From assembly GCF_016863475.1 (NCBI RefSeq), contig NZ_BOOY01000014.1, forward strand, positions 1 to 64,000: a DNA stretch of 64,000 nt, given 5' to 3'. The position numbers and the translations under genes were made by a program. The notes under the pieces were generated by a model, which was not told the DNA's origin, did not search any database, and saw only the letters and a list, made by a program, of their open reading frames with translations. Below, piece after piece: positions 60,116-63,296 of this stretch; the first letter of the stretch is position 1, and each line of letters starts with the position of its first letter. The stretch comes from Spirilliplanes yamanashiensis (lineage in GTDB: Bacteria > Actinomycetota > Actinomycetes > Mycobacteriales > Micromonosporaceae).

Positions 60116-60186
60116 GCGGGTGTAGTTCAATGGCAGAACATCAGCTTCCCAAGCTGACAGTGCGGGTTCGATTCCCGTCACCCGCT
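60116..60186 (+). tRNA. tRNA-Gly (anticodon CCC)
   Basis: The acceptor stem GCGGGTG pairs with CACCCGC. The anticodon loop TTCCCAA gives CCC. The T arm GGGTTCGATTCCC is standard, the discriminator is T at 60186, and CCA is encoded at 60187-60189. From the anticodon loop onward (60146) its sequence is repeated at 62255. This copy is intact and functional in form. Confidence 0.96.
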
Positions 60187-60193
60187 CCACGCT
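60146..60193 (+). repeat. Left attachment-site repeat (attL), inside tRNA-Gly
   Basis: 48 bp identical to 62255-62302. It supplies the 3' half of the intact tRNA-Gly. Sequence after it to 60240 also resembles that after the right copy, and encodes NGEGPDRE-stop on the minus strand, a divergent copy of the last codons of the gene at 62322. Confidence 0.9.
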
Positions 60194-60637
60194 CAAGGCC
60201 CCTGGTCAGGATGTCATTCCCGGTCGGGGCCTTCGCCGTTTCCGGCACTCGAAAAGGCGCTCGGGCCATCGACGGGCCACTAGGCATCGCCGCCCACCGC
60301 CTCGTCCGGAGTGTCGCGCGCTGTACTAGATCAAGGCGCCGCGCGAGCGCGGCGCGGCCGGCCGCGCTCGGCCTGCTGGCGGCCTCCGGCCGGCATCGGC
60401 CGGCGCGCCGGCCGACTGCTGCGACGACTCTTGAACTTGGAGGCTGCCTCCGGCGGAAGCACTCGGGCCCCGGGATGAGGTTGCCATCCCGTCCACCGTC
60501 GACCCAGGCGTAGCCGAGCAGACCTGCCCCAGGGCGCCAAGGTCGTTCGTCCGGTAGGGCGCTCCACCTTGTCGCCCTGGGGCAGGCCCACTCCACGGTG
60601 TGTGGGTCGACGGCGAACGGGATGGCTCGGCGCGAGG
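60194..60637. other. 444-bp non-coding left end of the element with a 21-bp hairpin
   Basis: No convincing gene is seen. The stretch includes AAGGCCCC...GGGGCCTT just after the tRNA (a possible tRNA terminator), the 18-bp repeat, and a strong inverted repeat. The last is CCTGCCCCAGGGCGCCAAGGT at 60523-60543 with its complement at 60566-60586 (one mismatch, 22-nt loop). The hairpin lies about 50 bp beyond the stop of the minus-strand gene at 60638, so it may terminate that transcript. Confidence 0.7.
60262..60279 (+). repeat. 18-bp element-end repeat, left copy
   Basis: CGGGCCATCGACGGGCCA occurs here and identically at 62151-62168 in the same orientation, inside each end of the element. It is itself CGGGCCA-TCGA-CGGGCCA. 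In the circular form the two copies would lie on either side of the att core, as expected for integrase arm sites. Confidence 0.7.
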
Positions 60638-61216
60638 TCAGCTTCTGCTGTCGACCTGTACGGGGCGGCCCCAGTCTGAGAGTAGCTGGCCGGGATGTTT
60701 AAGGGCCCACTGCTTCGCGACGCTGCCGATCCGGACGTTGCGGACAGGTGTGCCGGCAGGTGTCACCAGGACCGATGTGGTGACGGCGTGGAGCGCTTCC
60801 CATACGAGCCGGGCTAGCTCCCTGAAACGAACCTGTATCGCGTCTGTTTCGTTCGCTGGCACCCACTGAAAGGCGAGACGGCCAGACCTCATGACCGCGT
60901 TCGGTGCGTCAGCCTGAACATGCAGCCCGAAGGCGCTTTCGGCGAAGCCGGTACCCACGTATTGGATAGCAGGTCCGATCGCGGCAGCGTCCTGACCGAT
61001 CAAGCGGAGGGACGCCTGCAACGGTTCTTGGTGCAGGGCGTCACTGAGCGACATGTGGATAAGGTCGCCCAGCTCCCGCATTGCGCTACCGGCCCGCCAG
61101 CCAGTGATGCCGTCAATGAGCGGCGTTACCGCGTCGCTGAATGCATCGACGTCGGCATGCAGCATGAAGGTGCTCGTCTGCCGAGATCGGGACCCTGGTT
61201 TGGATGCCACATGCAC
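60638..61216 (-). CDS. Unrecognised protein A of the tRNA-Gly element
   Basis: A protein of up to 192 residues, with start uncertain: GTG at 61216 or ATG at 61165 (175 residues). It looks soluble and mixed alpha/beta. MLHADVDAFSDAVTPLIDGITGWRAGSAMRELGDLIHMSL is helical, and GTGFAESAFGLHVQADAPN and AFQWVPANETDAIQVRFRELARLVWEALHAV follow. There is no signal peptide or membrane segment, and I recognise no family. Less-biased codon use than the flanking genes fits its position in an acquired element. It lies 220 bp downstream of protein B on the same strand, so they may be cotranscribed. Confidence 0.55.
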   Translation of the reverse strand: MHVASKPGSRSRQTSTFMLHADVDAFSDAVTPLIDGITGWRAGSAMRELGDLIHMSLSDALHQEPLQASLRLIGQDAAAIGPAIQYVGTGFAESAFGLHVQADAPNAVMRSGRLAFQWVPANETDAIQVRFRELARLVWEALHAVTTSVLVTPAGTPVRNVRIGSVAKQWALKHPGQLLSDWGRPVQVDSRS

Positions 61217-61436
61217 ATGGTGTCAGCTTCTTCGGCCCCTGCGTGGTCGCGCTGATGTACAGCCATCCGTACGGCTAAGGCCCCCACCCCGACCACGACA
61301 CGGGTCGACAAGTCACGGACGGGCGAGCAGGGACAGCGCTCCCCTGCCAGCCCCACCATGATCTTCTTCCAAGGTGAGGGTGCGATCCCGGAGTCGCTAT
61401 GCAGGCTTGGGCGCCAGAGGCGGGCGGGCGCTGCTC

Positions 61437-61985
61437 TCAGGTCATGCGGCCAGTGTCGAACAGGTAGCCGATATACAGCTCATGGAGCGCACCGTCGAGG
61501 GGATGGCCGTGGTCATCAGTGAGCTGGAGTCGGCCCACCTCGGCGCTCGCCGAGCCCCCGTCGATCGCAACAAGTGCGGAATGCTGAGCCGTGCAGACCA
61601 TCTCGCGGACGAAGCGGGCCAGCGCGTCCACCTGCTCCGGCGAAGTGAGGCACCGTCGAAGTGTCAGCACGGCCTCGGTGTCGTCCACCCAGATCGGCAG
61701 GTTCGGGCTGCTGATCGCCTCACGGACGGTGTTCGCCACGCCGTCCCGATCCGACGCGAGGTCTTCGAAGAACGCTCGCATCAGCTCACCGCTTTCCTCC
61801 ACCTCCCGGCTCACTTTGGCAGCCTCCCACAGCCCGATCCCCGACGACTTTGCCTTCGTGGTGATCGCACCGAGAACAGACCCAGTCCGCTCGTACAGCC
61901 ATCGGTACAGCCAAGCCGGTCGGCGGCGACCGGGGGAGAGCGGCACGGCCGACACCCGGTGCAGGTCAGCGACTGTCATCAGCAT
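61437..61985 (-). CDS. Unrecognised protein B of the tRNA-Gly element
   Basis: A 182-residue soluble protein; ATGs at 61985 and 61979 are both possible. The N-terminus is basic and aromatic (GRRRPAWLYRWLYERTGSVLGAITTKAKSSGIGLW). It is followed by charged helices (SREVEESGELMRAFFEDLASDRDGVANTVREAI) and a closing beta-like half (VAIDGGSASAEVGRLQLTDDHGHPLDGALHELYIGYLFDTGR). No family is recognised. An open frame continues upstream to 62261, but that part overlaps the repeat region and is not coding-like. It is the first of the two element genes on this strand; a cargo or regulatory role is possible but not shown. Confidence 0.55.
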   Translation of the reverse strand: MLMTVADLHRVSAVPLSPGRRRPAWLYRWLYERTGSVLGAITTKAKSSGIGLWEAAKVSREVEESGELMRAFFEDLASDRDGVANTVREAISSPNLPIWVDDTEAVLTLRRCLTSPEQVDALARFVREMVCTAQHSALVAIDGGSASAEVGRLQLTDDHGHPLDGALHELYIGYLFDTGRMT

Positions 61986-62150
61986 CGGCCGACAGGATGC
62001 GCGATCTTTGCATGGCGAGGATCGCCTGACCCCACCTTGACCCCAGCAGCGGGCAACGGCTCGCTCAGCGACCACCAGTGATCCTGGCCGCGACGGCAAC
62101 TGAGCAGGCAGCGGACCCGCGTGCCCGTTCCTACTGATCACATGGTTGGC

Positions 62151-62168
62151 CGGGCCATCGACGGGCCA
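62151..62168 (+). repeat. 18-bp element-end repeat, right copy
   Basis: Identical to 60262-60279, about 87 bp before the right attachment repeat. See the left copy for interpretation. Confidence 0.7.
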
Positions 62169-62254
62169 TAAGCTGGTGCGGCTCAGGGGTAAGCCAGGCC
62201 GCTGGCGACCGCGCTGAGCGGGAACACCCCGCACGCGGGACTGATCTTGTGCAA

Positions 62255-62302
62255 TTCCCAAGCTGACAGTGCGGGTTCGATTCCCGTCACCCGCTCCACG
62301 CT
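62255..62302 (+). repeat. Right attachment-site repeat (attR), truncated tRNA-Gly 3' half
   Basis: 48 bp identical to 60146-60193. It begins in the anticodon loop and contains T arm, acceptor 3' strand and CCA, but no 5' half, so it cannot be a working tRNA. The sequence upstream (to 62254) is unrelated to a tRNA. Confidence 0.9.
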
Positions 62303-62321
62303 TGAGGCCCTGGTCAGGACG

Positions 62322-63296
62322 TCAGTCCCGGTCGGGGCCTTCGCCGTTCATCCGGTGCGGATCAGCGACCGCGGTCAGCGCATCCAGGCCCGTGCGGTAC
62401 CAGGCTCCGGTCCGAGTGAGGGCGTGCAGGTCGGCGCCGCGGCAGGTGTAGCGCAGGCTGTGCGCCTCCAGGCCGTCGGGCAGGACGATGCGGCGCTGGT
62501 CGCCGGCTCGGCGCACGCCGTCCGGCCCGGCATGCAGCGGCGTCACGAGGTCGTAGTCGGGGCCCCACCCGCCCACGAGCACCCAGTCGTCTCCGCGGAC
62601 CAGCAGGTTCCGGGCCGACCGGTACGGCGACGGCCCCCGGTCGGTCACCCCGCCGGCCGAGGCGGACAGCAGGTGGAAGTCGGTGTAGGGACAGACGTGC
62701 GCGGTGTCTCCGTCCACGTTGAGGGCGTAGCAGTCCGCGATGGCCGGGAGTCCCGTGTCGAGCGGGAAGAGCCAGTCGGCGGCGAGGTCGGCGGTGAAGC
62801 GGGCGAGCCCGTGACCCTCGGGGCCGCTGCCACCCATCGCCTCGTCGAAGTAGCCGACCCAGATCCTCCCGGACGGGGTCGTCAGGAGCTCCTCGATCGC
62901 GTCGCCGAGGGAGCCTCGCCGTTCCAGGACGCCACCGTCGGTCCACACCTCGGCGTTCGTCTCACCGGGACGGGCGCGGGCCGCGGCCAGCAGGACCCGT
63001 TCGCCGGGCAGCGGCTGCACGAACGACACGGCCAGGTCCGTCTCGACGTCGATGGCGCCGGCGAGCTCGCCGCCGTCGTGAACGGTCACCTGCTTGCGGC
63101 GGGGGGTCCGCCGGTGGGTCCAGACGGCGAGGGCGGTGCCGCCGGGTCCGACTCCGACCGCCTGAGGTTCGGAGGTCACGAGCGCCCGGTCGGACGGCCG
63201 CACCCAGCCGTGCCGTCGCAGCGGCACGACCGGCAGTCCGAGGTTCTCGGACCGCCGGTGCAGGCTTCTCCGGTCGCGGTCCGCATGCGTCGTCAT
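62322..63296 (-). CDS. Protein of unknown function, possible beta-propeller
   Basis: A 324-residue soluble protein. It has repeated short beta-rich blocks such as SGRIWVGYFDEAMGG, GHGLARFTADLAADWLFPLDTG and DDWVLVGGWGPDYDLVTPLHAGPDG, which look like propeller blades without a classical WD or Kelch motif. There is no signal peptide. The ATG at 63296 is used. Its final codons (NGEGPDRD-stop) fall inside the sequence that is also duplicated at the left end of the element, so in the uninterrupted chromosome it faced tRNA-Gly directly. It is intact here. The function is unknown. Confidence 0.72.
   Translation of the reverse strand: MTTHADRDRRSLHRRSENLGLPVVPLRRHGWVRPSDRALVTSEPQAVGVGPGGTALAVWTHRRTPRRKQVTVHDGGELAGAIDVETDLAVSFVQPLPGERVLLAAARARPGETNAEVWTDGGVLERRGSLGDAIEELLTTPSGRIWVGYFDEAMGGSGPEGHGLARFTADLAADWLFPLDTGLPAIADCYALNVDGDTAHVCPYTDFHLLSASAGGVTDRGPSPYRSARNLLVRGDDWVLVGGWGPDYDLVTPLHAGPDGVRRAGDQRRIVLPDGLEAHSLRYTCRGADLHALTRTGAWYRTGLDALTAVADPHRMNGEGPDRD

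Follow-up and report, generated by a model that had tools for sequence, protein, structure and literature searches.

Cis-mobilizable elements (CIMEs) are best known from integrative and conjugative elements (ICEs) of the relaxase and type IV secretion system type in the Firmicutes. A CIME has lost its integration and transfer genes and kept its attL and attR sites, as described in the relevant part of PMC5704250. Here, a small element of the actinomycete Spirilliplanes yamanashiensis is compared with such systems; it occupies the 3' end of a tRNA-Gly gene in the window, i.e. the whole 64,000-nucleotide stretch analysed (NZ_BOOY01000014.1, positions 1 to 64,000), where a sequence-only reading had pointed it out as a tiny insertion with no visible integrase. 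The window element is most probably a CIME-like deletion derivative of an actinomycete integrative and conjugative element (AICE), with intact recombination sites and no helper, judging from comparison of its parts with those of related genomes, and a related intact element might still move it. It resembles a CIME in keeping attL and attR, in the loss of integration and transfer genes and in using a tRNA site that related complete elements also use, and it bears AICE-like ends and a hairpin (an intact parent carrying this cargo did not turn up). It differs in that its parent type is the FtsK/TraB-type AICE, in that the hairpin, which is origin-like, has also been kept and in that mobilisation is putative.

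Decayed AICEs have been reported in Streptomyces (PMC9513070). As portrayed in the relevant passages of that paper, they share with the window element direct repeats, leftover cargo and a site that in relatives is either empty or occupied by a complete element; the window element differs in its tRNA-Gly site, its host and its cargo, and no integrase remnant was detected in it. The AICE pMR2 of Micromonospora rosaria (NC_006910) has the same hairpin but is 11.2 kb long and carries int, xis, rep and tra. An autonomous AICE has an integrase, a replication initiator and TraB, and an integrative and mobilizable element or phage satellite has its own integrase with mobilisation or packaging genes; the window element fits neither description. 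PAISt of Streptomyces turgidiscabies is likewise a modular island of an actinobacterium; it contains att sites and remnants of integrases, and its authors compare it with integron capture; however, in the parts of PMC4057263 that describe it, it is much larger, has its own integrase and is integrated at bacA rather than a tRNA gene.

The tRNA-Gly site and the ends of the element

The features that bound the element are as follows.

60116-60189, plus strand: tRNA-Gly (anticodon CCC), the integration target (ARAGORN, Rfam RF00005)
60146-60193, plus strand: attL core, the left copy of the 48-bp repeat
60194-60300, plus strand: AICE-type left end, a terminator copy and subterminal stretch (by similarity to G460, G031 and G010)
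60263-60279, plus strand: left subterminal tandem repeat GGGCCATCGACGGGCCA, 73 bp past the tRNA 3' end
62148-62213, plus strand: AICE-type right end (by similarity to G460, G031 and G010)
62152-62168, plus strand: right subterminal tandem repeat, identical to the left GGGCCATCGACGGGCCA, 103 bp ahead of the right tRNA half
62255-62302, plus strand: attR core, the right copy of the 48-bp repeat
62303-62348, plus strand: second tRNA terminator copy (by similarity to the copy after the left tRNA half)

An exact 48-bp copy of the 3' part of the tRNA stands 2,109 bp beyond the complete tRNA-Gly(CCC). The repeat comprises the final 44 tRNA bases and 4 more, does not extend leftward and is far beyond chance, and similarity continues rightward through the tRNA terminator to 60240/62348 (95% over 94-95 bp). 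The repeats reported by the sequence-only reading at 60146-60193 and 62255-62302 are thus confirmed, with similarity reaching further than it had seen, and so is its claim that the 2.1 kb between them is of lower GC: the interior has 67.0%, against 74.0% in about 5 kb on the left and 73.1% in 1.7 kb on the right. The present 3' part of the tRNA at 60116-60189 would have been supplied by the element, and the terminator copy at 62303-62348 would be the chromosome's original one.

Both ends resemble those of AICEs. Left ends in G460, G031 and G010 share 74-77% identity with 60194-60300 over 92-108 bp, and the right ends there share 75-86% identity with 62148-62213 over 36-66 bp. Within the whole 64 kb the 17-mer GGGCCATCGACGGGCCA occurs at 60263 and 62152 only. 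Comparison was extended to 40 loci (those of relatives, the window and Nonomuraea gerenzanensis), in which 39 elements were measured as the distance between successive tRNA 3' halves; the loci were included if they gave a strong match or had two or more tRNA 3' halves, and the fractions given here are not population frequencies. Elements were called AICE-type if they had a match of at least 320 residues to the tRNA-Gly integrase clade together with an excisionase match. Twelve of the 39 are of this type (7.3-18.0 kb), with a match to the pMR2 Rep in 10 of the 12 and to a TraB fragment in 9. Six tRNA-Gly integrases that were compared are 45-89% identical to one another and 32-42% identical to the pMR2 integrase. 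Five elements have an integrase match that falls short of the full definition (G444, G117, G490, G431 and G443), and no integrase match was found in 21 of the 39, all shorter than 3.2 kb (0.26-3.1 kb), or in the 8.1-kb element of G466.

The AICE-type elements at tRNA-Gly carry a subterminal tandem repeat of two GKGCC-type units with an 11-bp period. It is present on the left in all 12, 70-74 bp past the tRNA 3' end, and on the right in 10, with a spacing of 104 bp in 7 of these and 114-127 bp in the remaining 3. Hits to the loose pattern behind these counts arise in the window at about 0.04 per 100 bp per strand. The spacing in the window element (73/103 bp) is close to that of the 12, and the repeats are putative arm-type sites of the integrase. 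A 48-bp repeat alone could come from homologous or illegitimate recombination that duplicated the tRNA 3' half without any site-specific insertion, as the sequence-only reading had itself allowed. Set against an interior of lower GC, AICE-like ends, an AICE-linked hairpin and subterminal sites paired at AICE spacing, such a duplication is scarcely credible.

Two of the checks proposed alongside the sequence-only reading also agree with it. The search for the same ends around larger elements found that the tRNA-Gly site flanks integrase-bearing elements in other genera and is a hot spot of integration in related ones, and the check for empty sites yielded three of the 40 loci, again in other genera (G003, G021 and G036), where a single tRNA copy has no repeat site or integrase match behind it and the site is apparently empty.

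The conserved hairpin

One non-coding feature links the interior to AICEs.

60483-60626, plus strand: 144-bp conserved hairpin, putative single-strand origin (sso)

The hairpin is an imperfect palindrome with the ends GCCATCCC/GGGATGGC, and versions of it occur in pMR2, in AICEs at tRNA-Gly and in plasmids of Streptomyces. In pMR2, a non-coding stretch about 270 bp from the integrase gene matches it at 82% over 145 bp; nine plasmid records that cover at least 80% of the query are 74-86% identical to it, and a covariance model also matches inside the tRNA-Gly AICEs of G009 and Nonomuraea and in 80 of 121 genomes of the family. The stem predicted from 21 aligned copies has 50 pairs, 16 of which are changed on both sides; none of 500 shuffles reached 16 double-changed pairs (one of five measures gave 1/500), and sliding the stem lowers the paired cells from 96% to at most 44%, albeit the structure was tested on the alignment from which it was derived, which favours it, and related sequences inflate the support. 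Among the hairpins listed (132 distinct), 27 have a listed pMR2-type Rep gene no further than 16 kb away, and all 27 are on the strand opposite to it. They come from 20 genomes, one of which supplies six, and the Rep places, 94 in all, are from those listed, excluding the second parts of split genes and certain short fragments.

The hairpin is likely to be the single-strand origin of a rolling-circle replicon, as it combines the sso features of a conserved non-coding secondary structure and a fixed orientation to rep; this orientation is known from other loci, the window element itself being without rep. The proposed role is analogous to that of the sso (sti) of pIJ101, which is also a non-coding structured element of a rolling-circle replicon according to the relevant part of PMC4170104. 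The two differ in that pIJ101 itself yielded no convincing match to the hairpin, and the origin activity of the hairpin is putative. A Streptomyces longwoodensis plasmid with pIJ101-like gene order has nearly the same hairpin apex on a different stem.

Instead of an origin, the hairpin may be a terminator of transcription or a small RNA, or else a miniature transposon; this is less probable but deserves weight. The hairpin is GC-rich with clean inverted ends, as a miniature transposon would be, 105 of the 132 distinct hairpins listed have no listed pMR2-type Rep within 16 kb, and a listed hairpin lies within 16 kb of only 26 of the 94 listed Rep places. However, the aligned flanks show no obvious target duplication, and the compensated stem, the constant strand among the Rep-linked copies listed and the recurrence of the apex in a plasmid with pIJ101-like gene order also tell against these alternatives. 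No Rfam family matches the hairpin at the gathering cut-off; eukaryotic microRNA models scored far below theirs and were judged chance. A description of the hairpin was not found in the open-licence literature with the few terms searched. Its use as a marker of AICE remnants, and as a candidate origin in vectors, is conceivable.

Interior and origin of the element

The remainder of the interior includes two open reading frames (ORFs) and three other features.

60318-60482, plus strand: block found ahead of the hairpin at several other loci (by similarity to G306 and G184)
60638-61216, minus strand: ORF A, 192 aa, no recognised family
61257-61277, plus strand: fossil tandem-repeat site of GTACAGCC type, between ORFs A and B
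61437-61802, minus strand: ORF B from its likely start, GTG at 61802, 121 aa, no recognised family
61893-62016, plus strand: putative fossil right end, without its core, of an element of tRNA-Ala(TGC) type

Between 60300 and 60318 the sequence changes over from the left end to the pre-hairpin block, which together with the hairpin is 80% identical over 300 bp to G306 (60330-60626) and 75% over 322 bp to G184 (60321-60626). The tRNA-Gly AICE of G482 matches 60436-60626 at 86% (195 bp); there the match lies about 15 kb into an 18-kb element, with a 501-aa ORF and then the right end beyond it. Given this anatomy, the window element looks like such an AICE minus everything between the left end and the hairpin. 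The earlier finding of no visible recombinase agrees with the absence from the interior of any tblastn match (E 1e-5) to tRNA-Gly-clade integrases or to the excisionase, Rep or part of TraB of pMR2.

The favoured reading would run as follows. The tyrosine integrase of an ancestral AICE would have inserted it into the tRNA 3' end, at the site observed, and so rebuilt a complete tRNA. An internal deletion with its joint at about 60300-60318 would, from the anatomy, have taken out int, xis, rep and tra, about 15 kb in an ancestor like the G482 element, joining the left end to the hairpin and the right-hand cargo region. The cis-acting DNA left behind comprises both att cores and both tandem-repeat sites, together with the hairpin as a probable single-strand origin, the two cargo genes and the fossil right end, which suggests that the ancestor had switched integration site.

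This fossil block (61893-62016) has a counterpart in G124 (73% identity over 127 bp), in a stretch that runs into an exact 46-bp tRNA-Ala(TGC) 3' end; the G124 locus contains the hairpin too, along with matches to rep and TraB. A second tandem repeat of GTACAGCC type lies at 61893, just upstream of ORF B. On this similarity the block is the fossil right end of a tRNA-Ala-type AICE, and the ancestor probably changed its integrase; integrase change has been reported for AICEs in the relevant section of PMC9513070. Apparent tRNA-like cores inside the window were no better than shuffled sequence, and 61893-62016 is the only solid block.

A tRNA-Gly-clade integrase entering the cell should still be able to excise the element. 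No such integrase was found in the host, the best of its own matches being 31% identical, and the element is therefore probably silent at present. The host assembly (59 contigs, 99.96% complete) has 11 matches to the phage-integrase family and none to a pMR2-type Rep, and ORFs A and B are each present in a single copy; in this assembly the element is an orphan.

Several points weigh against derivation from an AICE by deletion. With no intact parent of the same cargo found, the deletion is deduced from the ends and the hairpin, and the internal sites of GTACAGCC type show a mosaic history that is more complex than one deletion. A second genome of the host genus was not present among the 60 relatives searched, and the empty sites are only in other genera. 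An assembly in 59 contigs could hide a helper, which is unlikely. Furthermore, the unit between tRNA halves in G022 (L088) contains a fragment with 41% identity over 54 aa to the right-flank gene of the window (62322-63296) and may include old chromosomal DNA, so that not every short unit need be an AICE relic.

The two proteins that the sequence-only reading could not place have stayed without a family. Neither ORF has a family above the cut-off in Pfam or NCBIfam or a match at E up to 1 in PHROGs or PADLOC, and genome-contig scans gave no wider homologues. ORF A is supported by a relative with a similar N-terminus; its relatives, in G172 (40% identical) and in part in G091 and G252, look truncated or partial, and it has none in viral contigs or plasmids. 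ORF B has none in phages and a single plasmid match, to a Variovorax ORF of about the same size (about 35% identical). Among 326 genomes of the phylum ORF B occurs in the host only, and among 249 of the order it has 4 weak matches and ORF A 5 matches besides the host. The start of ORF B has been revised: read from the first start at 62261 it is probably too long, as the upstream part overlaps the fossil element end at 61893-62016. Predicted structures are poor (pLDDT 31 for ORF A and 50 for ORF B), too low for a fold search. A similarity of ORF A to muconate cycloisomerase (E 0.011) was judged chance, and phages were rejected as a source of the element, the distant blastn matches among the 20 of 48 records listed being tRNA-like or short pieces at the tRNA ends.

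Second copies of two interior blocks occur elsewhere in the host: of the fossil right end in G000:C43 (L142:11380-11508, 81% over 130 bp) and of the pre-hairpin block in G000:C8 (L143:9595-9773, 79% over 197 bp). They come perhaps from other AICE-like elements or remnants. In G184 (L121, 6330-9840) four repeat sites of GTACAGCC type follow a tRNA-Ala(TGC) at intervals of about 1.1-1.3 kb, perhaps another array of small elements.

Sibling mini-elements and their cargo

The sequence-only reading had left a choice between a remnant and a satellite. The remnant is the better supported, by the AICE-like left end, the right end, the hairpin and the element of G444, which has 1.45 kb, both repeat sites, a 156-aa integrase fragment and a hairpin match (69% over 150 bp) and looks like an intermediate of decay. 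A true satellite, retaining only cis sites and cargo and being excised, moved and reintegrated in trans by the integrase (perhaps also the Rep and TraB) of a helper AICE, is unlikely. It would account for the identical repeat sites at both ends and the retention of an origin-like hairpin, and integrase-less elements are common at tRNA-Gly (21 of the 39 measured), with some of them in tandem with integrase-bearing ones (G482, G494, G033 and Nonomuraea) and related toxin-antitoxin cargo recurring in mini-elements of different genomes. However, no helper (clade integrase or pMR2-type Rep match) was found in the host, where both ORFs are single-copy. Among the 21 integrase-less elements, moreover, the right site was scored in 15, the left in 5 and both in only 4 (one a 256-bp unit in which a single site counts twice), as expected of decay, and this asymmetry fits deletions removing int, which adjoins the left end.

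The cargo is informative on the same point. Toxin-antitoxin genes or their relatives are present in at least 8 of the 21 integrase-less elements, a count without a background control that comes from 10 of the 43 ORFs listed, picked by eye and run against Pfam, and that leaves out the 256-bp unit and includes units that are not independent (the two copies in G494, and G033/G416). The mini-element of G019 has ParE and Phd/YefM, and that of G433 has a Gp49 (HigB-type) protein, with a related pair in G027, as well as AbiEii, to which a protein in G491, a genome of the same genus, is related. Four units stand in tandem in G027 (L093); PIN proteins occur in the G027 and Nonomuraea mini-elements, a second G027 unit being related to that of Nonomuraea. 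Where cargo is common to different genera (G027/G433 and G027/Nonomuraea), the homology lies in the body and not in the ends (matches longer than 100 bp), which tells against movement as satellites and makes retention by addiction at least as good an explanation.

A more far-reaching idea is that the integrase-less tRNA-Gly mini-elements of 0.3-3 kb in the host's family and its relatives form a cassette system, in which AICE integrases would collect units into tandem arrays and shuffle them in trans and the window element would be an origin-carrying unit; as it stands this is speculative and rather improbable. The units, bounded by tRNA-derived att sites and arm repeats and often holding one toxin-antitoxin module, would then make up a tRNA-based counterpart of the integron array, a parallel that is equally doubtful. 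Integron cassettes have attC sites and IntI. The sites of the tRNA-Gly units are tRNA 3' ends with tandem repeats, and the integrases linked to them are of the AICE tyrosine type, which tells against an integron gene cassette, although no search aimed at attC or IntI was made. There is no support for a strict cassette grammar, as the genes of mini-elements are not always on the minus strand or beside the right repeat. Nor do all mini-elements share the subterminal sites: the left site was scored in 5 of 21 against 15 of 21 for the right.

As an AICE deletion derivative, the window element alone is an ordinary relic of a known kind, and the hairpin and the toxin-antitoxin genes of its siblings are the more interesting by-products. 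Together, the element and its siblings show what survives AICE decay: the att sites, a hairpin that resembles an origin and, in many cases, genes for toxin-antitoxin systems. Two questions thereby become testable, namely whether the persistence of particular pieces of a dead mobile element is decided by addiction modules and whether such pieces are rescued in trans.

Mini-elements at five tRNA-Gly loci (L087, L093, L037, L153 and L155) often hold a toxin-antitoxin module. Those of G033 (L090:14361-17437) and G416 (L150), which belong to one genus, have the same cargo (93% over 804 bp), and the G033 copy also has two long ORFs that by eye resemble an IS21-type transposase pair. Upstream of the tRNA-Gly a PPOX-type gene is found in 19 of the 21 loci examined, the exceptions being L095 and Nonomuraea. 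In the window, a perfect 17-nt inverted repeat with 20 nt spacing (60040-60056/60077-60093) lies between this gene and the tRNA-Gly and is possibly a terminator.

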